DNA of 64,000 bases from Brevibacillus laterosporus (GTDB taxonomy: Bacteria; Bacillota; Bacilli; Brevibacillales; Brevibacillaceae). Shown in pieces: positions 1-21,291 of this stretch; the stretch's first letter is position 1, and the number at the start of each line of letters is the position of its first letter. Where the stretch lies: contig CP033464.1 of NCBI GenBank assembly GCA_007833815.1, positions 3,962,001 through 4,026,000 of the forward strand, given 5' to 3'. Below the pieces are notes generated by a model. The model was given only the letters and a program-made list of their open reading frames with translations. It was not told the DNA's origin and ran no database searches. A program made the position numbers and the translations under genes.

Positions 1-2577
1 GCTCAAGAAGATCGTCGTAGAATCGCAGACACTTTTTAGCTCTTCAAAGGCCAGTTTTACGGATACAGCATGCTCAGCAATTTCCTTTGGGTCATTCAAG
101 AGCTCATCCTTGAGCCTGTACCCCTCGTCCTCGTTGCATCCGCTCGACCGTGTTCCTGCAAGCGGAAAGGTACTTACCCATCCATTGCCATCGACCTCAA
201 CAACTGTTTCCGGACTGAAGCCAGCCACGCTCAGACCATCGAGGCTAAGCAAAAAAGAACGAGCAGGAGTGTTGACTCTTCTGCCTGCGATATAGCTAGC
301 CACCATATCAAGCTCTTGGTGAATCGGAATTTTTCTGGATAAGATCACTTTGTGATATTTGCGCTCCTTAATCTCTCGCACGGCGTCCGCTACTCCTTGC
401 ACATAGGCTTCAGCACCATACGTATTAACCTCAGGAACATCCAGCTTGTGACTGTCCACTCTTTGCACAAGAGCATTTTTCTCTTCGTCTAGACCATTCA
501 CTTGAATCCCCCGTAGTAACGCACCGAATTCATTTCGTTTTTCTTCACTCAGTGCTCTGAGCAGGATGGAGCCTTTTGTAAAGCGTATCTCCACCTCAGG
601 TATAAACAGCTTGAGAAGGCAACCGTCTTCAGACAGTAGTGGCAGATTTTGATAATAGCGGGCCATTCCAAAGTTAACGGTTCCATAGGCACGCCAGTTT
701 TTTAGCGGGATGGATGCAAACGCTTTGTCAATCGTTTCACTTAACAGGTTATTTTCAAAGCGGATTGTTTGGTTATTGTAGGCTAAGGTTGTATATTGGG
801 CATCTACGGATACAAGGGCATGAATCCCCATTCCCAACGACAACTCATCTCCGTTTTCATAGAGCAGATAGTTTTCAAAAAGACCCTGCTCGACAATTTG
901 AGAAGCTGCCAAATGAGCATCTCCCTCAAAAGCAACGATTTCCTCCAGATAGGAGACCTCGCACATCTTTGCATTGTTCTTTGGTGCTGTCGCCAACTCT
1001 TTGAGCTTGGCTTTATTGACTTTGCCAACGCTGGTAAGCGGCCAGTAATCGATGAATTCGATTTGATCTGGCATTTTATAACGTGCCACTCCCTTTTCAT
1101 GGAAGAAGGCATGAATATCAGCAAGACTGATTTCCTGATTGTCGGTAATCAAATATGCGCAGCTTTTCTCACCAAGCGTCTGGTCGGGAAGAGTAATCAG
1201 GGCAGCGTCTTTGATATCTAGATGCATACGAAGGTACGACTCCACTTCAGCCGGCATGATTTTTTCGCCCGCACGGTTGATTTGCTCTTTGATCCGTCCA
1301 CCGATCTGGAAATTTCCCTCCGGAGTAATCCTCGCCTTGTCGCCAGAACGGTAAAAGCCATCGGGAGTAAAACTCTCGCGGTTCTGTTCCAAAGCTCTGT
1401 AGTACCCGCTTATTGTATAGGGTCCTCGCACAAGAAGTTCTCCGTATGCGCCTGCCTCAACGTCATTTCCATGCTCGTCAACAATTCGAACCTCATCTGC
1501 ATCGGAGAGTGGACGTCCCTGGCAGTTGGCTACGACAGACTCAGGATCGTCGAGGGATGTGCAACAAATGAGTCCCTCCGCCATCCCAAACACCTGCTGA
1601 AGCTTGCATTTCATTTCCTGTATGATCCGTTTCGCGAGATTTTCATCTAGCATGGAGCCGCCTACCTGTAGGACTTCAAGACTTGAGAGATCGTTTGAGG
1701 TATCCCATTCCAGCACCTCAAGCCATACATGGACAATAGAAGGTACAAGGGCGGTGACGGTCACCCGTTCTTTTTCAATAAGGGGAAAAGCTTCATCGCA
1801 GCTTGTCGTTTTACATAACACGACTTTGCCTCCAGCCGACAGTGTGCCAAGGATTCCGGGGCAGCAGAGAGGAAAGTTGTGCGCAACCGGTAGAACAGCA
1901 AGATAGACGCTTTGCGGAGTCAACTTGCAGCGTGTCGCGGCTGCTTTTGCATTGTATGCGTAATCGGCATGGGTTCTTGGAATCAGCTTTGGAGTACCGG
2001 TCGTTCCGCCAGACAAGAGCAAGAGAGCGGTGTCTTTGTACGACGGAGATTCTAGCTCTACCGGCGTCCCGCTGATATCCGCAAGATTAATGCCGATGTC
2101 ACTGTCTCCATCGGTCATGATAAATTTGACAGATGGATGCTTTTTAACCAGCTGCTCCGCCATTTTTGTGTAGTCAAAGCCAAGAAACGTAGTTGGAATT
2201 ATATAGGCAACCGGCTTGGCGAGCGTAAAAATTCCGTCTAGTTCAGCCTCTCGATGAGCCGGTAAAACCAGAATCGGCAAAGCGCCAATGCGAAACAGGG
2301 CAAAGCATGTGAGTACGAAGGAAATCCGATTCGGAAGCTGTACAGCCACATTGTCTCCCTTCTTGATTCCTATCTGGAAAAAACCAGAAGCTAGCTCATC
2401 AACCTTACTGTCGAGCTCCCTGTAGGTGAGTCTGTTCTCCTCTTCTACTAGCGCTTCTCGATTCTGGTATTGTTCAGCCCATATGCGCAATTGCTGCCCA
2501 AGCGTTTTTGGCTCCCAAAATCCGAGTTGTTCGTAATTTTTTGCAGTATCCTCAAACCATTCTGTAGTTGCTTTCAT
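1..2577 (-). CDS. Fused aryl-acid (salicyl) adenylate ligase - salicylate synthase, 3' end outside window
   Basis: The frame is open from the ATG at 2577 (AGGAGG-type RBS just upstream) to base 1, giving 859 codons with no stop; the C-terminus lies off the left edge. Residues ~1-535 are a stand-alone adenylation enzyme of the EntE/YbtE/MbtA type: the ATP loop SGGTTGTPK, the core FGMAEGL, and YRSGDKAR are visible. From residue ~540 the chain continues into a chorismate-utilising domain of the salicylate synthase type (YbtS/Irp9/MbtI), with KYHKVILSR, NTPARSFLL, FPLAGTR and DPKEIAEHAVS. The two activities, making salicylate from chorismate and activating it as salicyl-AMP for an NRPS, are normally separate proteins. 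I checked most lines of the reverse frame and saw no frameshift at the junction. A Fur box lies 115 bases upstream. Choice of salicylate over 2,3-dihydroxybenzoate is inferred from the second domain. Confidence 0.9.
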   Translation of the reverse strand, partial: MKATTEWFEDTAKNYEQLGFWEPKTLGQQLRIWAEQYQNREALVEEENRLTYRELDSKVDELASGFFQIGIKKGDNVAVQLPNRISFVLTCFALFRIGALPILVLPAHREAELDGIFTLAKPVAYIIPTTFLGFDYTKMAEQLVKKHPSVKFIMTDGDSDIGINLADISGTPVELESPSYKDTALLLLSGGTTGTPKLIPRTHADYAYNAKAAATRCKLTPQSVYLAVLPVAHNFPLCCPGILGTLSAGGKVVLCKTTSCDEAFPLIEKERVTVTALVPSIVHVWLEVLEWDTSNDLSSLEVLQVGGSMLDENLAKRIIQEMKCKLQQVFGMAEGLICCTSLDDPESVVANCQGRPLSDADEVRIVDEHGNDVEAGAYGELLVRGPYTISGYYRALEQNRESFTPDGFYRSGDKARITPEGNFQIGGRIKEQINRAGEKIMPAEVESYLRMHLDIKDAALITLPDQTLGEKSCAYLITDNQEISLADIHAFFHEKGVARYKMPDQIEFIDYWPLTSVGKVNKAKLKELATAPKNNAKMCEVSYLEEIVAFEGDAHLAASQIVEQGLFENYLLYENGDELSLGMGIHALVSVDAQYTTLAYNNQTIRFENNLLSETIDKAFASIPLKNWRAYGTVNFGMARYYQNLPLLSEDGCLLKLFIPEVEIRFTKGSILLRALSEEKRNEFGALLRGIQVNGLDEEKNALVQRVDSHKLDVPEVNTYGAEAYVQGVADAVREIKERKYHKVILSRKIPIHQELDMVASYIAGRRVNTPARSFLLSLDGLSVAGFSPETVVEVDGNGWVSTFPLAGTRSSGCNEDEGYRLKDELLNDPKEIAEHAVSVKLAFEELKSVCDSTTIFLS

Positions 2578-2693
2578 TCTGTCCTCCTCTTGAATACCTG
2601 CGGGTCAATCATTGTGCACCCGAAGCGGGATCATGCAGGGTACTGTCAATCTGGTTGCATGCATCGTGTTGGTTTGTCTAACAATACAATATT

Positions 2694-2712
2694 GATAATG
2701 ATAATCATTGTC
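2694..2712 (-). promoter_or_regulatory. Fur box upstream of the salicylate ligase/synthase gene
   Basis: GATAATGATAATCATTGTC matches the 19-bp Fur consensus in 18 of 19 positions and extends as an inverted repeat to 2692-2714. It sits about 120 bp before the ATG at 2577, where it could repress the leftward gene when iron is plentiful. The 331-bp interval 2578-2908 otherwise holds only this promoter region and the decayed end of the phosphopantetheinyl transferase. Confidence 0.85.
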
Positions 2713-2849
2713 AATACTTTTTGGACGATAAATTTTCTTTATATTGGTAAAACATGCCGGATTCCCTTCCAATTTCTCACTTTTTCTTCGTTTCACTCGA
2801 TTAGTATCATAATCTTGCATTTCGTTATCGTACTGCATTTTCAAAAAAG

Positions 2850-3223
2850 CCTGCTGCCTTTCGCAAAAAGATAAACGTTGATTGCTCTTTCGTCTGGATG
2901 AAAGCAGTTCACGATTTCATTGAGTCTGGTATGCGCCAAATATGCTCTACATCAATGCCCAGGCTACGATAACGCGAGAATGCAACCGCCACAGGATGGT
3001 GCGAATACGACAGATTGAAAGAAAATGCTTCCGGATCACTCCGTCCGCACAGTGCCGGCTTTCTGTTGAAAGTGCTATCAGTTCGGTTCTGCCAATTTTC
3101 GAACTCCAGAAAAGAGTACTTCCAGCTCTTTGCTTTAGCTTCAAATGCCTGCGCAAAGGCAAACCAAATATGCACCTCGCCGCCCGCTAGCCACAGAGGC
3201 GAGGATAAATTGGTTCCTGCCAT
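2850..3223 (-). pseudogene. Degenerate Sfp-type 4'-phosphopantetheinyl transferase
   Basis: The open part (104 aa from 3223) ends in the diagnostic PPTase core: FSFNLSYSHHPVAVAF followed by LGIDVEH, which in Sfp bind CoA and Mg. The reading frame then stops at 2909, but a one-base shift continues as NEIVNCFHPDERA, the next conserved PPTase segment. The W..KEA..K motif of the C-terminal half, needed for catalysis, is absent; the sequence runs straight into the Fur-box promoter of the next gene. The N-terminal half is also shortened compared with the ~230 aa family. It lies 71 bp after the thioesterase, where siderophore loci often carry their own PPTase. I judge it dead; activation of carrier proteins must then come from another genomic PPTase. 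Confidence 0.65.
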
Positions 3224-3294: not shown

Positions 3295-4074
3295 TCAGCT
3301 GTCCCTTCTTGCTGACATCACTTCCCGATGCTGTGCAATGATTCTTGCGACAGACCGCAAAAGCAACTCCCTTTTTGTCGTCAGAAAAAAATGATCCCCC
3401 TCAATCATTTCAAGCGTAAAAGCAGAGCTTGTATAAGGCGCCCATGCTTCAATCTCCTCCCGATTTGCCTCTGTATCCACGGTCCCGCCGAATGCAGAAA
3501 TCGGACAATCGAGCGGCTCCTCATTTGCATAAACATACGTTTCATCAGCGGTAAAGTCTGCGCGCAAAACTGGGAGGAACAGATTCATGAGTTCCCTGCT
3601 TTGCAATATTGCCTCGGGTGTACCGGAAAAACGACGTAGCTCCCTGACAAACTGATCATCCGGCAGATGGTGCATTTGCTTTGGCTCTGGTATGTGCGGA
3701 GCGCGGCTTCCTGAAACAATCAGGCGGCAAGGCTGGAGCTTCCATTTTCTTCGAACCGTTCGTGTCAGCTCAAAAGCGACTCGTGCGCCCAAACTATGAC
3801 CAAAAAAGATAAACGGGCGATCCAAATACGGATAAATCGCTTCGGAAATTACTTCCACCAGCACCTCCATTTCACACAAAGCCAGTTCAGTAATCCTGTT
3901 TTCCCTGCCTGGAAGCTGTATGGGGTAAACGCCCACATCATTAGGAAAAGCATTTGTCCATCCTCTGTAAGCAGAGGCGCCTCCTCCTGCATAGGGAAAA
4001 CAGAAAAGGCGAATGATGTCTTTCGCTTCAGGATGAGTAAGCAGCCATGGAGTGGCTGATTTATCAGTTTCCAT
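3295..4074 (-). CDS. Type II thioesterase of an NRPS/PKS siderophore pathway (YbtT/GrsT family)
   Basis: A 259-aa alpha/beta hydrolase. Near the N-terminus it has LFCFPYAGGGAS, typical of editing thioesterases; the nucleophile elbow is GHSLG with Ser94, the acid is Asp200 (GTVD) and the base His228 (GDHFF). These proteins clear misprimed or stalled acyl groups from carrier domains of assembly lines. It is transcribed leftward toward the decayed PPTase and the salicylate gene, and a Fur box (4197-4215) lies about 125 bp upstream of its start, so it is probably iron-repressed. Length is normal for the family. The NRPS modules it would serve are not in this window. Confidence 0.92.
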   Translation of the reverse strand: METDKSATPWLLTHPEAKDIIRLFCFPYAGGGASAYRGWTNAFPNDVGVYPIQLPGRENRITELALCEMEVLVEVISEAIYPYLDRPFIFFGHSLGARVAFELTRTVRRKWKLQPCRLIVSGSRAPHIPEPKQMHHLPDDQFVRELRRFSGTPEAILQSRELMNLFLPVLRADFTADETYVYANEEPLDCPISAFGGTVDTEANREEIEAWAPYTSSAFTLEMIEGDHFFLTTKRELLLRSVARIIAQHREVMSARRDS

Positions 4075-4196
4075 CGTAACTCCTCCATTCTTTCTATCAG
4101 TCGGGCGCTTTGATCCACCTTGTCCCTGACAAGCCCTTGAACAATCGTCACTAATATCTGCGCTGCTTCGACCGTAGAGAATATAACAATGATAAT

Positions 4197-4215
4197 GATA
4201 ATGATAATCATATTC
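4197..4215 (-). promoter_or_regulatory. Fur box upstream of the thioesterase gene
   Basis: GATAATGATAATCATATTC fits the Fur consensus. The hexamer GATAAT occurs three times in register from 4191 to 4208, so more than one Fur dimer could bind in overlapping fashion. It lies 123 bp upstream of the leftward thioesterase start, within the 691-bp divergent region 4075-4765. Confidence 0.8.
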
Positions 4216-4495
4216 ACATTTATTGGCGAATTTACAAAATCTTCTTTTGATCTATTTTTTGTAAAATTAGCTGGTTTTTCTCCAATTATCTCGTCCTAGG
4301 TCCTCCAGATTGATTTTTTTGCAGATTATGCCAGCCTTGTAGCACATGAGGGGGTCGTTTCCGATGAACATTACTGTGTTAGGAGTGAGTCATTCCTTCA
4401 CTTTAATCAAGAAATACGAAGAAACATTGAGATAATTGGCGAAAATAGCAGAAATATATACCAAAATATAGGGATTTCAACTTTTAATTTACTTT

Positions 4496-4514
4496 GACTA
4501 TGATTATCATTATC
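4496..4514 (+). promoter_or_regulatory. Fur box upstream of the ECF/ABC importer operon
   Basis: GACTATGATTATCATTATC matches the Fur consensus with one or two changes and extends as an inverted repeat to 4494-4516. It precedes the rightward operon by about 250 bp, leaving room for a long transcribed leader. Confidence 0.8.
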
Positions 4515-4516
4515 AA

Positions 4517-4765: not shown

Positions 4766-5368
4766 ATGCAAACACAGACAGCAGCCGACCAAAACAGATG
4801 GAAAATGCGTGATTTCATTACACTTGCCATTTTTAATGTGGTGATGCTCATTATTATGACGATTAGTCCGATCTTTACGGTTGTTTCTTATTTGGTTGTA
4901 GGAGGAGCCGCTGCGCTGTTTAGTGGGCCGATTTATATGGTCATGTCCAATAAAATCGCTAAACGCGGAGTTTTGTTTTTTACTTGCATCATTACAGGCT
5001 TATATTTTGTAGCTTTTGGTTATGCCCATTATCTGCTTACGCTAGCTGTGATCGGAGTTATCTGCGAACTAATCTTATGGGGAGGCGATTCTTATAAGAA
5101 CCCTGTCCGCAATGCCGTTGGCTACGCTATTTTTTATGTGGGTTGGTCTCTTTGCGGCGTTGTACCGCTTATTTTCTTCCGGGATCAATACATGGCTATT
5201 TTGAAGAAAAGCTACTCTCCGGAACAGCTCGAAACAATGCTTTATTATTTTGATACGCCAAGCATGATTCTTATTATGTGCACAATCTCCGCTATCGGTG
5301 GACTAGCTGGTTGCTATATCGGGAATTTGCTGATGAAAAAACATGTGAAAAAGGCAAAGTTAGTATGA
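4766..5368 (+). CDS. ECF transporter substrate-specific (S) component, MptD/Trep_Strep family
   Basis: A 200-aa hydrophobic protein with about five or six membrane segments, beginning with a short cytoplasmic stretch (residues 1-16) and a first helix at ~17-40. Sequence and length fit the Trep_Strep (TIGR02185/MptD) family of putative S components. S components bind the substrate and dock onto a shared T-ATPase module. It is the first gene of a rightward operon; its stop overlaps the T-component start in an ATGA. The substrate is not known from sequence. Its Fur-controlled position beside siderophore genes points to an iron chelate rather than the vitamin typical of ECF systems. The start has an RBS (GGGAGG) 7 bases away. 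Confidence 0.82.
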   Translation: MQTQTAADQNRWKMRDFITLAIFNVVMLIIMTISPIFTVVSYLVVGGAAALFSGPIYMVMSNKIAKRGVLFFTCIITGLYFVAFGYAHYLLTLAVIGVICELILWGGDSYKNPVRNAVGYAIFYVGWSLCGVVPLIFFRDQYMAILKKSYSPEQLETMLYYFDTPSMILIMCTISAIGGLAGCYIGNLLMKKHVKKAKLV

Positions 5369-6045
5369 GCAGGCTCGGTCCCAAAACGCATTTATTTGTG
5401 CTTATTTTGGCAAGCATCCTCTCCACGCTTGTGAGCAATTCTTTGCAAGCACATTTGATGGTGCTTACATGTGCACTGTATTTGCTTTGCAACAAACTGC
5501 CCAAAAAGGCGCTTTTTTTTGTGCTGTTATATATAGCTCTAATGTCGATTTTATCTATTTTGCCGGATGGCGCAGGAACAGCAATCATTATTCTCTATAC
5601 GTTTGCCAGAATGATTCCGATGGTCATGATCGGGATTGTGTTGATGCATTCGACACCCAGCAGTATCATGTGCGCTTTTGAAAAGGTATACGTCCCAAAA
5701 TCTGTGCTGATCATGATCTGCATTCTAATCCGCTTCTTCCCCGTTGTCTTGCTTGAAATGAAAGCAATTCGGGACGGCATCCGGTCCAGGGGCATATTCC
5801 CACAGTGGTACAGCCCTCTCATTCACCCAGCCATGGCCTATGAGTGTTTTTTTATGCCGCTGATTGTTCGATGCCTAAAACTATCAGCAGAGTTGGCCTC
5901 GTCCGCAGAGCTGCGGGGAATTGAGTGCAGCTGCGCCAGAACCTCTATCCATCCCGTAGGCTTTCGGGCCATAGATGGGATGGCGGTAGGGCTGTACACC
6001 CTGATCGGAGCGGCGATTTATTGGACAGGAGGTTTGAACTTGTGA
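5365..6045 (+). CDS. ECF transporter transmembrane (T) component, CbiQ/EcfT family
   Basis: Starts at the ATG overlapping the S-component stop (ATGA, 5365-5368), giving 226 aa. Several hydrophobic helices are followed by the cytoplasmic coupling region, where SRGI (after IRDGI) and ELRGI correspond to the paired A-R-G coupling motifs of EcfT that touch the ATPases. It should transmit ATP hydrolysis to the S component. A longer upstream reading is possible in the same frame but would run inside the S gene without its own RBS. Its TGA overlaps the next gene's GTG (GTGA), indicating translational coupling across the operon. Confidence 0.88.
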   Translation: MSRLGPKTHLFVLILASILSTLVSNSLQAHLMVLTCALYLLCNKLPKKALFFVLLYIALMSILSILPDGAGTAIIILYTFARMIPMVMIGIVLMHSTPSSIMCAFEKVYVPKSVLIMICILIRFFPVVLLEMKAIRDGIRSRGIFPQWYSPLIHPAMAYECFFMPLIVRCLKLSAELASSAELRGIECSCARTSIHPVGFRAIDGMAVGLYTLIGAAIYWTGGLNL

Positions 6046-7487
6046 TTGAGTTAAACGGCGTCACCTTTCGCTATGGCTATGAAGGCGGGGAGGCTGAAAA
6101 CGAAACCGGTGTGGAGCAAATCAATCTATCCGTGGAGGCTGGGCAATGTGTCGTGCTTTGTGGCCGTTCGGGCTGCGGTAAAAGCACGATCATGCGCCTG
6201 ATCAACGGGCTTGCACCCAGCTTTTATTACGGGAGCCTTACTGGTCAGGTAAACGTTGGTGGAAGAAGCCCTGATTCCCTTAGCCCAGAGGAGCGCACTA
6301 GGATGATGGGTGTTGTGTTTCAGGATCCTCGTAGCCAGTTTTTTATGGAAAACGTGCGGGACGAGCTGGCGTTTTCAGCTGAAAACCTTGGAATCTCACC
6401 GAAAGAAATTATGAATCGGATTGAAAAGCAGGCGAAAGAGTTGGACATTTCCCACTTGCTTGACCGCCCGTTACATATGCTGTCTAGTGGGCAAAAACAA
6501 CGTGTAGCCATCGCCGCTGTATCCGTTCTTTCACCACCGCTTCTGATTCTTGACGAGCCCACTGCCAATCTGGATCATCGCTCCACACAAAATCTAATCG
6601 AAATCCTCGGCAGGCTAAAGAAGAACGGTACTACCCTCTTCATCAGCGAGCATCGACTGCATCCACTCTTGCCTGTTGCCGATATTTTTGTCTGCATGGA
6701 AAAAGGTAAAATCGCACGAACATGGACAAAAGAGGAATTTTCTCAGCTTGCCTATGAAGACGTACGTCCATACGGTCTGCGACATCCAGATATGGTTAAA
6801 AGCCGACCGGAAAACCAATCATCAGAAGCACCTCAAGCCGCCCCTGCGCTGGAAGGCCGTAAGCTTACCTATCAGTACAAAAGAAACGGCGACGGAATTA
6901 AAGATTTGGACATCTCGCTCCCAAAAGGAGGCGTTACCGCCCTTACTGGTGAAAACGGAACAGGAAAAACCACCCTATGCAAAGTTTTATGCGGTCTTCT
7001 ACGCCAGCACAAAGGAGCGATCTTCAGCCAGGGAATCCGCTTATCGGCAAGCCAAAGACGCTCCTCCAGCTATCTTGTCATGCAGGATGCTGACTATCAG
7101 CTCTATGCGGACAGCGTCGGAAACGAGATTGTTTTGGGTAGGCTTGTCGATGATTCGCTTCGTCTGAAAGCCTATGAAGCACTGGAATCTTTTGGCCTGG
7201 GAGAGCTTCGTGATCGGCACCCTGCCTCCCTTTCCGGCGGAGAAAAGCAGCGGGTCACCATGGCTGCGGCCTACTGCTCAGATGCGGAGCTAATTATACT
7301 CGATGAGCCTACCAGCGGACTTGACGGCGACAGTGTGCTTAAAGTTGTTGCATGGGTAAGAAAACTTGCACAAGCTGGCAAAACCGTCGTTATCATAACA
7401 CACGACAGAATCCTATCCGAACTCGCCTGCGATCAGATCATTGAGCTGAAGCATCAGCAGAAGGGAGTGAGAACCGTTGAAAGCTAA
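6042..7487 (+). CDS. ECF transporter ATPase, two ABC domains fused in one chain
   Basis: Begins at GTG 6042, coupled to the T-component stop and preceded by AGGAGG; 481 aa. The N-terminal ABC domain has Walker A GRSGCGKST, signature LSSGQKQRV and Walker B ILDEPTANLD. The second, from about residue 265, has GENGTGKTT, LSGGEKQRV and ILDEPTSGLD. Most ECF systems use two separate ATPases (EcfA1 and EcfA2); here both halves are in one polypeptide, as in YkoD-like proteins. All catalytic motifs are intact in both halves. It powers the S/T pair encoded just upstream. Its 3' end overlaps the following ABC gene by 11 bases. Confidence 0.92.
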   Translation: MIELNGVTFRYGYEGGEAENETGVEQINLSVEAGQCVVLCGRSGCGKSTIMRLINGLAPSFYYGSLTGQVNVGGRSPDSLSPEERTRMMGVVFQDPRSQFFMENVRDELAFSAENLGISPKEIMNRIEKQAKELDISHLLDRPLHMLSSGQKQRVAIAAVSVLSPPLLILDEPTANLDHRSTQNLIEILGRLKKNGTTLFISEHRLHPLLPVADIFVCMEKGKIARTWTKEEFSQLAYEDVRPYGLRHPDMVKSRPENQSSEAPQAAPALEGRKLTYQYKRNGDGIKDLDISLPKGGVTALTGENGTGKTTLCKVLCGLLRQHKGAIFSQGIRLSASQRRSSSYLVMQDADYQLYADSVGNEIVLGRLVDDSLRLKAYEALESFGLGELRDRHPASLSGGEKQRVTMAAAYCSDAELIILDEPTSGLDGDSVLKVVAWVRKLAQAGKTVVIITHDRILSELACDQIIELKHQQKGVRTVES

Positions 7488-9288
7488 GGAGAAAAAGGGA
7501 ATCTCAAGGCTGTTGGAGCTTGCAGGTGAAAAAAAATCGCTTATGGTGTGGTCCGCGATTTTATCTACCGTGAGCGTGTTTTTGTTGCTGGTTCCGTATG
7601 TCTCGGTCTACTATGTGATGGCTGAGCTTTTAACACATGCTTCGGACATTTCCGCTGTGGACGCCGCGTACGTCTTACGGTGGGCCATTTGGGGCATTGC
7701 GGGAATGGTTCTGGGTTATTTCTTCATGTATGTCGGAGGGATGTGCTCGCATATTGCGGCATTTCGTATCCTGTACGGCATCAGGGTCAAGCTGTCGGAT
7801 CACATTGGAGCGCTCCCTCTCGGCTACTTTAACAAAAATGCCACGGGGAAAATCAAAAAAATCGTTGAGCAAGATGTAGAAAAAATCGAGCTGTTTATCG
7901 CCCACCAGTTGCCCGATCTGATCAACACTGTCGTCATGATCGTTGCAATCATTGTCACGATGTTTTCATTGAACATCTGGCTTGCACTTGCCTGCGTCAT
8001 CCCCATGCTGATCGGATTTGCCTCCCAATACTCCATGATGGCCGGGAAAAAAGCAAAGGAGGGACTGAAGGAGTATTTTGACGCGCTGGAAAACATCAAT
8101 ACCTCCTCCATCCAGTATGTGCGGGGTATGCCCTCCATCAAAATCTTCGGGCAGACGGTCCATTCTTTTCGGAAATTCCATGATGACATGCTCCATTACC
8201 GCAATTTCAGCGTCAAGTATACGGACAATTTTCAAAACGGTTATGTATCCTTTAAAGTCATCATTTTATCGCTGGCGACTTTCTTTTTGCCTGTCGGGCT
8301 GTTTTTCATCAGCACAGATCCGCATAACGTGGCCTTTGCCGCAACGCTCTTGTTTTTTCTCGTTTTGACACCGGGTATTTCTACGCCAATTTTCAAACTG
8401 AACAGCTTTGCCTCCACCCTTAATGTCATTGTCGAAGGGGTCAACCGCATTGACGAAATATTCAAGGAAACGACCATAAAGGAGCCTGAAGTCGGCAAAA
8501 AACCTTCCTCTTATGACATCGGGTTCCATGAGGTTTCCTTTTCTTACGGCGGTGAGGGCAGTGCAGAGGTTTTGAAAGAAATCAGCTTTACTGCACCTCA
8601 GGGAAAAATCACGGCTCTGGTCGGCCCCTCCGGCTCTGGAAAATCCACCGTTGCCCAGCTTATCTCCCGGTTTTGGGACGTGCTAAAAGGAAGCATCACT
8701 ATTGGCGGCGTGGATATCCGCGACATGAGAATGAACGAGCTGATGGATACCCTGTCCTTTGTGTTTCAGGATACGTTTCTGTTTTCAGATACACTCTATA
8801 ATAATATTTTGGCGGGCAGGCCGACTGCAACAAAAGAGGAAGTCCACGCAGCAGCCAAAGCCGCGCAATGCCATGAGTTTATTGAGCGTTTGCCAAATGG
8901 CTACGATACACGGATCGGCGAGGGTGGGGTTTATCTGTCGGGTGGTGAGGAACAGCGGGTATCCGTCGCAAGAGCCATCTTGAAAAATTCACCCATTCTT
9001 GTACTTGATGAAGCCACAGCTTACGCTGATCCGGAAAATGAATACCAAATGCAGCTTGCGTTACGCGAGCTCATCAAGGACAAAACGGTGCTGATCATCG
9101 CCCATCGTTTGACAACCATTTGCGAGGCGGATCAGATCATTGTATTGAAGGAAGGGAAAATCGACGATATCGGCACCCATGGCGAGCTTCTTGCTCACGG
9201 GGGTTTATACAAAAGCATGTGGGACGCCTACACATCTTCCGCGGAATGGAAAATCGACATTTCGCAGGAGAAGGAGGAATTCGTGTGA
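7477..9288 (+). CDS. ABC permease-ATPase fusion, YbtP/IrtA-like siderophore transporter half
   Basis: A 603-aa half-transporter starting at TTG 7477 (RBS AAGGGAG), overlapping the ECF ATPase by 11 bases. Residues ~1-330 are a six-helix ABC type exporter-fold membrane domain; the C-terminal ABC domain has Walker A GPSGSGKST, signature LSGGEEQRV, Walker B ILVLDEATA and the H-loop IIAHRL. DEATAYADPENE is typical of the YbtP/Q and IrtA/B branch, which have an exporter fold but import ferric siderophores. It should form a heterodimer with the next gene product. Context in a Fur-controlled salicylate locus supports iron-chelate uptake; export of the siderophore cannot be excluded. Confidence 0.88.
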   Translation: MKAKEKKGISRLLELAGEKKSLMVWSAILSTVSVFLLLVPYVSVYYVMAELLTHASDISAVDAAYVLRWAIWGIAGMVLGYFFMYVGGMCSHIAAFRILYGIRVKLSDHIGALPLGYFNKNATGKIKKIVEQDVEKIELFIAHQLPDLINTVVMIVAIIVTMFSLNIWLALACVIPMLIGFASQYSMMAGKKAKEGLKEYFDALENINTSSIQYVRGMPSIKIFGQTVHSFRKFHDDMLHYRNFSVKYTDNFQNGYVSFKVIILSLATFFLPVGLFFISTDPHNVAFAATLLFFLVLTPGISTPIFKLNSFASTLNVIVEGVNRIDEIFKETTIKEPEVGKKPSSYDIGFHEVSFSYGGEGSAEVLKEISFTAPQGKITALVGPSGSGKSTVAQLISRFWDVLKGSITIGGVDIRDMRMNELMDTLSFVFQDTFLFSDTLYNNILAGRPTATKEEVHAAAKAAQCHEFIERLPNGYDTRIGEGGVYLSGGEEQRVSVARAILKNSPILVLDEATAYADPENEYQMQLALRELIKDKTVLIIAHRLTTICEADQIIVLKEGKIDDIGTHGELLAHGGLYKSMWDAYTSSAEWKIDISQEKEEFV

Positions 9289-11027
9289 TAATGAAACAGC
9301 TACGCAATATTACTGCGGGTGATCCACAGAAAATGTTGAAGCCCATCCTTTGGGCGGTCTTGGCCAATTTGGTCAATATATTTCCGTTCGGGTGCATGGC
9401 CGCCGCAGTGAGTATGATTTACGCATACTATTCAAAGGAACAGTCATCTTTGAATATGCAAGGCTTATGGCTCGCATGGGGGTGCATGGTGTTATTCCTT
9501 GTCCTTGTGTTTCTGTGCGAACGGATGTCTTACCGTTCTACTTACCGCAGTGCGTACGAGTCTTCTGCTGATGGACGGACACATCTAGCAGAGCATATGC
9601 GCAAGCTCCCTCTAGGCTTCCTCATGAGAAAAGACCCCGGAGAACTCGGCCATATGATGATGAATGATTTTATCCATTTAGAAAATGCCGCGACGAATAT
9701 TTTACCGCAACTTGTAAGCGGTGCGATTATACCCATTTTGGCCTTTCTTGGTCTGCTTTTTATGGACTGGCGAATGGCTGTGGCCATGCTTGCGGGGTTT
9801 CCCGTAGCTGTGCTGTTGCTATGGGGTGTTTCCGGTTTGGAACGAAAACTCGGCAAGAGTCATTCCAAGGCCAAAATCGTTCAGGCCAATTGTTTGCAGG
9901 AATACCTGTTTGGGATGAAAATTATCAAGGCTTACAACCTGCGCGGTGAGAATTTTAAAAGATTGGAACAGTCTTTTTCTCATTATATGAAGGAAAGCAT
10001 CAAGCTGGAGGGCGTGCTTGGTCCATTCTTTTTGGTCGCAATGGCCTTTATGCAAACCGGCGTGTCCTTGATGACGATCGTGGGAGTATATCTCATATTG
10101 GGTGGTGAAATTACGATCCCTTTGTTTGCTATGTTTCTGCTGGTGGGCACTCGTGTTTTTGATCCACTGTCGGTTGCCATCATGCGCCTCCCTGCGTTCA
10201 AATATGACGCCATGGCGGGCGAACGCATAGTCAGCCTACTGGATGAGCCTGTCATGAGGGGCGAAAAAGAACCGCCGGAACACCACGATATCCGCTTTGA
10301 CAGCGTAACCTTCGGCTATGACAAAAGCATCGTGTTGGACAATGTTACCGTGGAAATGAAGGAAGGGACGCTTACCGCGATCGTCGGTCCTTCGGGAAGC
10401 GGGAAAAGCACGCTGCTACGCCTGATTGCGCGGTTTTACGACCCTCAGCACGGGAAAGTGCTGTTTGGCGGCAGTGATGAACGCGAAATGGACCCGGAAA
10501 AGCTCATGAAAAAAATCTCCATGGTATTCCAGGACGTTTATCTGTTCCAGGACACCATCCGCAATAATATCCGCTATGGGCGGGAGAACGCCACACAAGC
10601 GGATATTGAGGAAGCTGCAAAAGAAGCTTGCTGCCATGATTTCATCATGAAGCTGCCCCATGGTTATGACACCATGGTGGGAGAAGGCGGGTCCACCCTC
10701 TCTGGTGGTGAGCGCCAGCGCATCTCCATCGCCCGGGCCATACTCAAAAACGCTCCCGTTATATTGCTCGACGAGGCCACTTCCTCCCTCGATCCGGAAA
10801 ACGAGGTAGAAATGCAGAGAGCGATCCGCCGCCTGATCAAGGGGCGCACTGTCATCATGATCGCCCACCGGCTGAAAACCATTGTCAACGCAGACAGAAT
10901 CATCGTGCTGGACAAAGGCAAAATCGTCGAAGAGGGGCGGCATGAGGAGCTCATCAAAAACGACGGACTATACGCCAAGCTATGGGAGCTCCAGACCAAA
11001 ACGAGTGGCTGGAGGATTACTGCATAA
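9285..11027 (+). CDS. ABC permease-ATPase fusion, YbtQ/IrtB-like partner
   Basis: I place the start at GTG 9285, which overlaps the previous stop as GTGA and lies 6 bases from AAGGAGG; an in-frame ATG at 9291 is the alternative. The product (about 580 aa) has an exporter-fold membrane domain (~1-320) and an ABC domain with GPSGSGKST, LSGGERQRI, ILLDEATSSLD and MIAHRL. Last gene of the rightward operon; a terminator-like hairpin stands at 11286-11335. The pair with the preceding gene matches the arrangement of ybtP-ybtQ and of eqbK-eqbL in gram-positive siderophore loci. Confidence 0.88.
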   Translation: MIMKQLRNITAGDPQKMLKPILWAVLANLVNIFPFGCMAAAVSMIYAYYSKEQSSLNMQGLWLAWGCMVLFLVLVFLCERMSYRSTYRSAYESSADGRTHLAEHMRKLPLGFLMRKDPGELGHMMMNDFIHLENAATNILPQLVSGAIIPILAFLGLLFMDWRMAVAMLAGFPVAVLLLWGVSGLERKLGKSHSKAKIVQANCLQEYLFGMKIIKAYNLRGENFKRLEQSFSHYMKESIKLEGVLGPFFLVAMAFMQTGVSLMTIVGVYLILGGEITIPLFAMFLLVGTRVFDPLSVAIMRLPAFKYDAMAGERIVSLLDEPVMRGEKEPPEHHDIRFDSVTFGYDKSIVLDNVTVEMKEGTLTAIVGPSGSGKSTLLRLIARFYDPQHGKVLFGGSDEREMDPEKLMKKISMVFQDVYLFQDTIRNNIRYGRENATQADIEEAAKEACCHDFIMKLPHGYDTMVGEGGSTLSGGERQRISIARAILKNAPVILLDEATSSLDPENEVEMQRAIRRLIKGRTVIMIAHRLKTIVNADRIIVLDKGKIVEEGRHEELIKNDGLYAKLWELQTKTSGWRITA

Positions 11028-16082: not shown

Positions 16083-17049
16083 TCACAGGCAGGATGGCTT
16101 GTAAGTATATTTGCTTTAGTCGTTGCCATTTCAGGTCCATTCCTGACATTACTCGCTTCCGGTATTAATCGTAAAGTCATTCTCTTAACTGCTGTACTTA
16201 TTTTCGCGATTTCAAATATTGTTTATGCCTATACTACGAAATTCGATGTTATGCTAGCTTTCCGTATTCTTCCTGCCATTTTTCATCCTGTCTTTTTTTC
16301 AGTAGCCCTTGTGACTGCAGCTAAACTTGTCCCTTCGGAAAAAAGCAGCAAAGCGGTTACAAAGGTTTTTGCCGGAATAACTGTCGGGTTTGCTTTTGGT
16401 GTGCCTATGACTTCTTATCTCGCGGAACAGTTTTCGTTAGAAGCTGCTTTCTTGTTTGGAGCATTTGTAAGTGTGATTGCCTTTGTAGGAATATTAGCTT
16501 GGCTTCCCTCCATGCCTGTTAAGGAAAAAATGTCTTATGGCAAGCAGCTTGGTATATTACGCAAACCTCAATTGTGGTTAAATATCGTGACAGTTATTTT
16601 TCTCTTTGCAGCTATGTTTTCTGTGTACAGCTACTTTACTGAATATCTTGGACAAGTAACACATATGAACGGATCATGGATTAGTATCATGCTGATGGCT
16701 TTTGGTCTAATTATGATTTTGGGAAATTTTTTATTTGGGTTCTTATTTCATTCCGATGGTTGTTATCGTGTTCATTTGGGGAGCAGTGCATTCTGGCGGG
16801 CTTATTGTCAGTCAAGCATGGTTAACGACTGAGGCAAAAGAAGCTCCCGAATTCGGCAACAGCTTGTTTGTCTCATTTTCCAATCTTGGAATTACTGTAG
16901 GGACTTCTATTGGTGGTTGGTTTATTTCTCACTTGGGTATACATCAACTCTTCTGGAGCGGAATTATGTTTACACTGCTTGCTTTCTTATTGATTATGAT
17001 AAAAATAAAATTTTTCAAATCGAGCGCAGAGGAAGTAAACGTACTTTAA
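16083..17049 (+). pseudogene. MFS transporter (DHA1 drug/purine efflux type), truncated and frameshifted
   Basis: In one frame from 16083 the sequence reads SQAGWLVSIFALVVAISGP and on through NRKVILLTAVL, FRILPAIFHP and KVFAGITVGFAFGVP, i.e. MFS helices 2 to about 9. A stop at 16062 cuts off the N-terminal helix, and near 16740-16760 the frame changes: the C-terminal helices (WGAVHSGGLIVSQAWLT to the end at 17049) continue in another frame with part of the chain missing. No start codon with an RBS is present. The family resembles PbuE/YdhP-type exporters. The region 15709-16082 before it shows no gene I can support. Confidence 0.75.
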
Positions 17050-19019: not shown

Positions 19020-21291
19020 ACGCTGCACCTCCTTGCGCCACACGCAACAGAGATAGTGCTAGTTCTTTTCCATCCTGTTCTACATATCCGATACAAGAAG
19101 GACATCCTGAGGCACATGGACACGAGCTAATCATCTCTTCCGCTTTAGCAAGAATGATTTCCATCTGTTTATAAACCTGTTCGCTAAGCCCAATGCCACC
19201 TGGATAGCGATCGTAAAAGAAAATAGTAGGTTGACTAGAATGAACAGCTTTTCGCTGGGTGATTACATGTAAATCTTTAGGATCGCACATCACCCACAAA
19301 GGCGCAACGTGTTGCAACACATGTCCTGCCCCAACAAGCCCCAACTCCACTTCCTCTTGTCCAATTGTCTGTAGGATGGATTCTGGAAAGCTAATCCAAG
19401 CTGCATTCGTATGCAATTCTTCTTCTGGCAAATGAATCGGACCTGATCCAATGTTCTCATGCGTCTCAAACTTGATTTTCTTAAAAATCGTTGCCATCGC
19501 ATTGACGGCTACTTCTCCGTAAGCCAATTCGGTCTCTTTGTGCATACGTGTAGCATCTGACTCTAGCACTTTTAGCTGCACAGCCAAGTTAGCATCTGTA
19601 TAATAATCGACCTGAACCTCACGAATAAAAGCCTTCTTCTCTTCATAATCCAGTTTTTCCACCTGATACTGCACTCCTTGATGCAGATAAATCGCTTCTT
19701 CATGCAATAGCGTCATGGAGCTGAAACGGTCCATTTCTCCAATAACCTTTTCCTGTCCACGTTCGGTAATGTCGACAATGACCACATTCTCTTGTGAAGC
19801 AGAACGCAAGCTGATGTTATGCGCCGGGAAAGAGTCGTTCATCCAGAACCACTTCCCTTTAGAATAATGCAGAATCTGTTCTTCTGTTAAAAATTCTAGA
19901 ATCTCTACAATTTCAGCCTGACCAAATGCATCTCCTTTGTTGAAAGGTAGCTCGTAAGCTGCACACTTCAAGTGATCCACGAGAATGATCAGATTATCAG
20001 GATTAATACGCGCTGATTCAGGATTTCGTTCAAAAAAATACTCAGGGTGTTGAATAATGTATTGGTCGAGTGGTGAAGAACTACCTACCATGACAACAAC
20101 AGACTCGTCTTGACGACGCCCAGCTCTTCCTGCCTGCTGCCATGTACTAGCCACGGAACCCGGATAGCCCGTAATGACGCATGCTTGCAATTGTCCAATA
20201 TCCACCCCAAGCTCCAGTGCATTCGTACTAACCACCCCAACAATGTCACCTTGTCGCAGTCCCCGTTCGATTTGTCTTCGTTGCGTTGGTAAATACCCGC
20301 CTCTGTAGCCTTGAATCGTTTTAGGTCCCAGTTTTTTACGGATCAGCTCCTGTAAGTAGGTAAGAAGAATCTCTACACGCACACGACTTCTCGCAAATAA
20401 AATGGTTTGAATTCCGTTTGTCAAAAAGGCGGAAGCAATGTCCCTAGCTTCTAAAGTTGCACTGCGTCGTATATTTAATTGATGGTTTACGATAGGTGGA
20501 TTATAAAAAATAAAATGCTTAGTCCCTGTCGGAGCTCCATTGTTGTTTACAAGCTCCATCTGCTCCTCTGTAATCTGTTCTGCTAATTGCAATGGATTCG
20601 CAATGGTTGCGGAAGTACAAATAAACTGCGGATGTGAGCCATAATAGGCGCAGATACGCTTCAATCTTCTAATAACATTAGCAACGTGACTCCCAAACAC
20701 ACCTCGATATATATGCAGCTCATCAATTACCACATATTTCAAATGTTCAAAAAAAGCCACCCATTTGGTATGATGAGGCAAGATTGCAGAATGTAGCATG
20801 TCCGGGTTAGTAATTACAATATTGCCGGCTTTCCGCACCATTTGCCGGATATTTGCTGGTGTATCCCCATCATAGGTTTCCGTTTTGATAGATAGTCCCA
20901 TCTCATTAATTAATTCATGTAATTCACTCTTTTGATCTTGCGCCAAGGCTTTAGTGGGAAACATATATAACGCTCGCGCCTGAGCATCATGAGCCAACGT
21001 TTGCAATACCGGCAAGTGATAGCACATGCTTTTTCCCGAAGCGGTGGGAGTTACTGCGACTATATGCTTCCCATTTTGAATATGGCGAAAAGCCGTTTCT
21101 TGATGTGTATATAAAGAGGAAATTCCTCGTTTACTTAAAGCTAGTGCGATGCGCTCATCCAATTGCTCTGGGAACGGCACCACTTTTGGATCACGGGGCG
21201 GAATGGTCGTCCAGTTGACGATGTTTTGTTTGATCCGTTCGTCGGAACGAAACTCTTCCAAGAGTTCTGTCATGTTTTTCTTTCGTAGCAT
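19009..21291 (-). CDS. mrfA: MrfA/YprA: DEAD/DEAH-box helicase with C-terminal zinc domain
   Basis: A 760-aa superfamily 2 helicase: motif I TPTASGKS, motif II DELH, motif III TSAT, and motif VI WQQAGRAGR. The C-terminal DUF1998 region ends in a four-cysteine cluster (CPCASGCPSC) for zinc. Length agrees with YprA. The protein moves 3'-5' on DNA and with MrfB excises mitomycin-damaged sites in B. subtilis; that role is carried over by homology. The start at ATG 21291 has a GAGGGTGATC RBS. mrfA is first of the two-gene operon, 113 bp from the Rrf2 gene, which is transcribed in the same direction upstream. Confidence 0.93.
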   Translation of the reverse strand: MLRKKNMTELLEEFRSDERIKQNIVNWTTIPPRDPKVVPFPEQLDERIALALSKRGISSLYTHQETAFRHIQNGKHIVAVTPTASGKSMCYHLPVLQTLAHDAQARALYMFPTKALAQDQKSELHELINEMGLSIKTETYDGDTPANIRQMVRKAGNIVITNPDMLHSAILPHHTKWVAFFEHLKYVVIDELHIYRGVFGSHVANVIRRLKRICAYYGSHPQFICTSATIANPLQLAEQITEEQMELVNNNGAPTGTKHFIFYNPPIVNHQLNIRRSATLEARDIASAFLTNGIQTILFARSRVRVEILLTYLQELIRKKLGPKTIQGYRGGYLPTQRRQIERGLRQGDIVGVVSTNALELGVDIGQLQACVITGYPGSVASTWQQAGRAGRRQDESVVVMVGSSSPLDQYIIQHPEYFFERNPESARINPDNLIILVDHLKCAAYELPFNKGDAFGQAEIVEILEFLTEEQILHYSKGKWFWMNDSFPAHNISLRSASQENVVIVDITERGQEKVIGEMDRFSSMTLLHEEAIYLHQGVQYQVEKLDYEEKKAFIREVQVDYYTDANLAVQLKVLESDATRMHKETELAYGEVAVNAMATIFKKIKFETHENIGSGPIHLPEEELHTNAAWISFPESILQTIGQEEVELGLVGAGHVLQHVAPLWVMCDPKDLHVITQRKAVHSSQPTIFFYDRYPGGIGLSEQVYKQMEIILAKAEEMISSCPCASGCPSCIGYVEQDGKELALSLLRVAQGGAAFVS

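Follow-up and report, generated by a model that had tools for sequence, protein, structure and literature searches.

MbtI and Irp9 make salicylate from chorismate via isochorismate. In the systems of YbtE and YbtS, of PchD, and of MbtA and MbtI, this reaction and the activation of salicylate are run by separate proteins. A single chain for both reactions is known from Xenorhabdus szentirmaii: PMC9396620 calls PxbJ, a product of the pxb (piscibactin/photoxenobactin) cluster, a 'bifunctional salicylate synthase/adenylation protein' and describes it as equivalent to YbtS plus YbtE. According to the same paper, the products were no longer made when PxbJ was deleted and reappeared on complementation.

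Here we describe a protein of Brevibacillus laterosporus that, like PxbJ, holds both enzymes in one chain. The domain order of PxbJ is probably synthase-ligase, as we infer from the gene order of the related Photobacterium irp cluster, and on that inference the Brevibacillus enzyme is a variant with the order reversed. The first-pass annotation of this DNA knew of no described example in this order. As regards the fused enzyme this has to be given up, since PxbJ is already described in PMC9396620, but the words 'in this order' may still stand. No description of a ligase-first fusion was found in the literature searched, and a metallophore survey (PMC12971057) contains 0 occurrences of fused or fusion; work on ulbactin biosynthesis from outside that search (Gu et al. 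2025, 10.1021/acs.jafc.5c02142) may describe a Pseudoalteromonas fusion. The ligase-first order, together with the repeated fusion or splitting discussed below, is possibly new.

The window, that is the whole stretch of DNA analyzed, comprises 64,000 nucleotides (G000:C4:3962001-4026000). Positions 1-2577 of its minus strand form a single open frame that is still open at the left edge. A 20-kb stretch fetched across that edge (L004) contains the complete frame, from an ATG at 19577 to a stop ending at 16584, and gives a protein of 997 aa. Coordinates of all features are provided in Table 1.

Table 1. Features of the fused gene and its upstream neighborhood (window positions unless L004 is given)
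Feature	Position	Strand	Remarks
Fusion, in-window part	1..2577	-	residues 1-859 of 997
Fusion, remaining 138 residues and stop	L004 16584-17000		left of base 1
Aryl-acid AMP ligase domain	994..2577	-	residues 1-528; TIGR02275 and code
Linker	898..993	-	residues 529-560; variable in first half
Salicylate synthase domain, in-window part	1..897	-	residues 561-859; K743, E790, E832, E835
Candidate internal start TTG, residue 556	910-912	-	GAGG stretch upstream
Promoter-like site TTGACA-17-TATTGT	2686..2714	-	~110 nt upstream of fusion ATG
Stand-alone thioesterase	3295..4074	-	Pfam Thioesterase, 159 bits; upstream of fusion; Fur-box matches 4190-4216 before gene
Divergent transport genes	4766..11027	+	Fur-box matches at 4495-4515
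ECF S component	4766-5368	+	
CbiQ	5278-6045	+	
ECF-type ATPase	5925-7487	+	model cut-off mostly not reached
Two MsbA-like ABC proteins	7477-9288, 9120-11027	+	curated cut-offs mostly not reached

The ligase half matches NCBIfam TIGR02275 (DHB_AMP_lig) over residues 4-526 with 618 bits, which is below the cut-off of 723.55, and the synthase half matches TIGR03494 (salicyl_syn) over residues 560-985 with 433 bits, which is above the cut-off of 325.15. The latter match spans positions 8-424 of the 425 in the model and hence its full length. Pfam agrees with these assignments (AMP-binding 32-393, AMP-binding_C 444-519, Chorismate_bind 723-976). The single-chain fusion proposed in the first-pass annotation is therefore borne out by the extended frame, and the domain borders it gave (~535 and ~540) fit the profile limits. 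It had also named two findings that would speak against a fusion: a stop or frameshift at the junction, of which the frame has none, and loss of catalytic residues past the left edge, where all those mapped, from H872 to K976 in the list below, are kept.

That a frameshift or mis-assembly joined two genes has next to no probability. No point in support of it was found, and the fused frame recurs in every one of the 12 carriers found in the order, in one genome of another family (G102), in two Pseudoalteromonas records and in one Klebsiella record. Moreover, differences are in excess at third positions in both halves. An assembly error as the origin of the fusion is thus refuted by independent genomes and by the coding pattern. 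Compared to the nearest relative, dN/dS is ~0.05 for the ligase and ~0.10 for the synthase, with a higher dN in linker residues 529-560; judged by these substitution rates, both halves are under purifying selection.

The conserved residues indicate what each half probably does. All 17 active-site positions mapped from MbtI are identical in the window protein: K743, E790, L806, A807, G808, T809, E832, E835, H872, T899, Y923, R943, G957, G959, E969, E972 and K976. The reference positions in MbtI include K205, E252, E294, E297, H334, T361, Y385, R405, E431, E434 and K438 plus six others. The full set is kept in 28 of the 29 aligned synthases. The synthase of Rhizobium etli 8C-3 (L045 2890-4305, +) has a G in the E252 column, where the other 28 have glutamate; this is either a change or a local misalignment.

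The ligase half carries the code N234 F235 C239 A276 Q304 G306 V329 I337. Read as N F C A Q G V I it equals the PchD code in the table of PMC3672683 and differs from the code given there for 2,3-dihydroxybenzoate (DHB), N Y S A Q G V V. Residues and code are thus shared with the separate proteins named at the outset. The salicylate pattern, with C at code position 239 and I or L at 330, is present in the window ligase (I at 330), and C at 239 is found in 22 of 22 ligases compared. At code position 278, G replaces A in six of the 13 copies from Bacillota. Among solved relatives, the best match to the ligase half is DhbE (1md9), a DHB-AMP ligase, followed by others including a salicylate-AMP ligase (5wm2) and, in fourth place, PchD; for the synthase half these relatives are Irp9 and MbtI.

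As the ligase half does not reach the cut-off for DHB ligases and, among solved structures, matches a DHB ligase best, the family does not certify the exact substrate, and no salicyl-ligase model is found among the matches listed (25 of 128). One might therefore argue that the synthase half stops at isochorismate, or that the ligase half uses another aryl acid such as 2,3-dihydroxybenzoate. We consider this very unlikely given the synthase score above the salicylate-synthase cut-off, the 17 of 17 positions kept and a code in which C occupies 239 and I occupies 330. The family score, the conserved residues and the code together favor salicylate as putative product and substrate, as the first-pass annotation had it.

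A search across Brevibacillus, which had been suggested as a check, found a synthase over the cut-off in four of the six genomes of the genus, in each case within a frame of 1006-1030 aa. At the level of the family, represented by the same 40 genomes as the order, there are 12 carriers, all with frames of 995-1030 aa. No split copy was seen among these 12. Class and phylum were searched at E <= 1e-75 using evenly drawn samples (399 and 398 genomes, respectively). The 17 carriers in the class sample are the 12 of the order, G102 and four genomes with separate frames of 456-470 aa; the two in the phylum sample are the window genome and G735, where the synthase is separate. In total, the phylum yielded 18 distinct carriers, 13 of them with a fusion; in each of these 13, namely the 12 from the order and G102, the frame was confirmed to include the ligase half as well. 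G102 has a fused frame of 1002 aa and is the only carrier among 11 genomes of its family. A scan of genome contigs gave two loci, L023 and L024. The first duplicates a contig of G005 and does not enter the counts, and the second is a distant ligase (22% identical).

Gammaproteobacteria and Actinomycetota were covered through a plasmid collection only, in which 19 records cover 80% of the protein. Three of these are fused (two from Pseudoalteromonas and one from Klebsiella), 13 list ligase and synthase genes separately (five of the 13 were fetched) and three are unannotated Vibrio records, of which the one read (H14) has separate frames. With fused frames in G102, Pseudoalteromonas and Klebsiella, the idea that the fusion is unique to Brevibacillus was rejected. 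Separate genes occur in both orders: in Pantoea At-9b the adjacent ligase and synthase genes have the order of the window and lie 15 bases apart, while in Photobacterium and Pseudonocardia the synthase comes first.

The fusions of Pseudoalteromonas sp. NC201 and P. piscicida (L039, L066) have the ligase-synthase order of the window in frames of 1009 aa, each with a large NRPS next to it. Identity to the window protein is ~50% for the ligase and ~46% for the synthase, and they group apart from the Bacillota fusions. The fusion on Klebsiella pneumoniae plasmid pINF237_01-VP (AYJ96642.1, L038 11980-14922, +) has the same order, a length of 980 aa and 51% and 43% identity, respectively. There is no long same-strand frame downstream of it in the stretch fetched. 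Genes for a TonB-dependent receptor and an ABC transporter are located nearby. The Klebsiella protein is annotated only as 'salicylate synthase', which illustrates how thin the annotation of such fusions can be.

How often the two enzymes were joined was addressed with trees of both halves. A first ligase tree of 22 rows places all 16 fused rows together (support 96/97). After addition of the separate ligases of G735, G147 and G070 (25 rows), the 13 Bacillota fusions group with these three (100/97) and the three proteobacterial fusions are found elsewhere. In the synthase tree (29 rows) the Bacillota fusions join three of the five separate Bacillota synthases, those of G070, G735 and G147 (support 100/99), and the remaining two, G132 and G316, lie elsewhere. 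Embleya, Pseudoalteromonas Bsw20308, G132 and G316 have no close ligase and were used in the synthase tree only. An AU test of a single fused clade yields p = 0.007 for the ligase and a borderline p = 0.049 for the synthase.

A single origin of all ligase-first fusions is consequently rejected by the 25-row ligase tree and the AU test, on trees with long branches. As far as the sequences tell, two scenarios would remain: two or more fusions, or one ancient fusion followed by later splits. At least two independent origins of the ligase-synthase fusion, one in Bacillota and one in Gammaproteobacteria, each reversing the domain order of PxbJ, and with no split copy among the 12 carriers in the order Brevibacillales, is a tentative reading that we regard as rather doubtful. 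If true, it would mean that the physical linkage of making and activating salicylate was itself selected, either by channelling or by keeping diffusible salicylate near its consumer. The copy in G102 (L057) is nested among the Brevibacillus-family copies in the ligase tree, which suggests transfer. No strong match was found in the 10 other genomes of its family. Acquisition of this copy by transfer is, from its placement, probable.

Putative signals for iron control surround the gene. Between the hexamers of the promoter-like site upstream of the fusion there are two overlapping Fur-box matches (2693-2707 and 2699-2713); promoter-like sites as such are found 10 times in that region, against 3.8 in shuffles. 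The window holds eight Fur-box matches against 0.65 expected, a number reached in 0 of 100 shuffles. Seven of the eight fall into three groups around the cluster, the pair at 2693-2713 and those at 4190-4216 and 4495-4515. The last two groups sit between the thioesterase gene and the divergent transport genes, which suggests that biosynthesis and transport may share iron control. A Fur-like overlapping pair is found upstream of 13 of 13 Bacillota fused loci when up to three mismatches are allowed; the pairs have one mismatch each in five copies and three and two mismatches in the other eight, counts that carry no shuffle control. No such pair was found upstream of the three proteobacterial fused loci, nor any Fur-like site upstream of the Pseudoalteromonas fusions.

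On the downstream side, a same-strand NRPS follows the fusion in 15 of 16 fused loci. Its ATG lies 27-31 nt past the fusion stop in all 13 Bacillota copies (one has an extra ATG at 8 nt) and 3 nt past it in both Pseudoalteromonas loci, and a carrier motif IELGL(D/N)S is present near the NRPS start in 15 of 15. At the window locus this NRPS has 3038 aa and reads carrier-Cy-A-MT-PCP-Cy-A-MT-PCP by motifs, with the domains found by Pfam. A second NRPS further downstream has an A domain with the same FDLSVYDIF stretch, so that it occurs in three of three A domains read; we take it as the cysteine-type D-L-Y pattern (table of PMC3672683). Also further downstream is a thiazolinyl imide reductase (TIGR01761, 311.6 bits, cut-off 188.8), which carries a methyltransferase domain.

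The thiazolinyl imine reductase, a salicylate starter and cysteine-type NRPS modules are what one would look for in an ulbactin cluster, though they are common to other thiazoline siderophores and not ulbactin-specific. Only one salicylate synthase in the window genome exceeds the cut-off. According to published antiSMASH runs, B. laterosporus XJ-24-3 and B.O.D. have an ulbactin cluster, as do some B. brevis strains (PMC12503217, PMC13308469, PMC12654256), and the title of a reference in PMC10080011 names a Brevibacillus as the source of ulbactins F and G. The neighboring genes, together with what has been published for these other Brevibacillus strains, suggest ulbactin as the product of the cluster. 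Pseudoalteromonas flavipulchra S16 makes ulbactin analogues according to PMC12819058. A ligase-first fusion followed by a large NRPS is thus shared by Brevibacillus and Pseudoalteromonas, both linked to ulbactins; this is an association and not a cluster comparison. Two imine reductases are reported for ulbactin in PMC12819058. Adjoining the thiazolinyl imide reductase is a 340-aa saccharopine-dehydrogenase-like protein (L004 6217-7239, -), which could be a second imine reductase.

Overall, the fusion protein is very probably a bifunctional enzyme that supplies the starter unit in an iron-regulated cluster for a thiazoline siderophore of the ulbactin type. The C-terminal half would convert chorismate to salicylate and the N-terminal half would turn salicylate and ATP into salicyl-AMP. 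The ligase half would subsequently load the salicyl group onto the aryl carrier domain that starts the next downstream NRPS, which would then add cysteines. The most likely benefit of the fusion is that the two enzymes are made at a fixed 1:1 ratio and that salicylate arises next to the enzyme that consumes it.

A stronger proposal, which the first-pass annotation named as something the fusion would allow, is true substrate channelling, in which the synthase site hands salicylate over to the ligase site and the protein never releases it. The same-order fusion may have arisen more than once, as if linkage were favored. However, the linker is short and variable and gives no sign of a fixed interface, and related clusters make do with separate enzymes. 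The C-terminal subdomain of ANL ligases swings during catalysis, and it is to this moving part that the synthase is attached. Taken together this renders channelling improbable. An AlphaFold2 model of the fusion, built from a two-sequence alignment, has a mean pLDDT of 28.7.

Another proposal is that the frame is also read from an internal start, so that both the fusion and a free salicylate synthase are made. Eleven of the 13 Bacillota copies have a start-like codon at residue 556 (557 in one), preceded by a GAGG or AGGAG stretch in five of the 13, the window copy included, and in L046 and L047 an AGGAG precedes an ATG at residue 530. Some free synthase could accordingly be made. Nonetheless, L046 and L057 lack a start-like codon at 556, eight of the 13 copies have no Shine-Dalgarno-like stretch there (by a crude test), and no start with such a stretch is common to all 13. 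Reading from an internal start is therefore unlikely, and we retain the bifunctional starter-unit enzyme as the preferred reading.

Such an enzyme would lead from chorismate to an activated aryl acid within a single natural polypeptide and would be useful as a compact part for pathway engineering. It also provides a clean system for asking whether fusing consecutive enzymes gives channelling: the pair exists ligase-first, in the apparently reversed order of PxbJ, and as separate proteins.

Two further observations concern the upstream genes. An ECF-type transporter set (4766-7487, +) adjoins the siderophore cluster, and similar-looking frames are found beside the separate salicylate synthase of G147 (L059). 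At 2909-3223 (-) the window has a 104-aa frame with NLSYSHH and LGIDVEH that is phosphopantetheinyl-transferase-like by eye, with no Pfam match. At the same place L049, L051 and L052 have frames of 252-263 aa matching Pfam ACPS; the gene in the window looks decayed.
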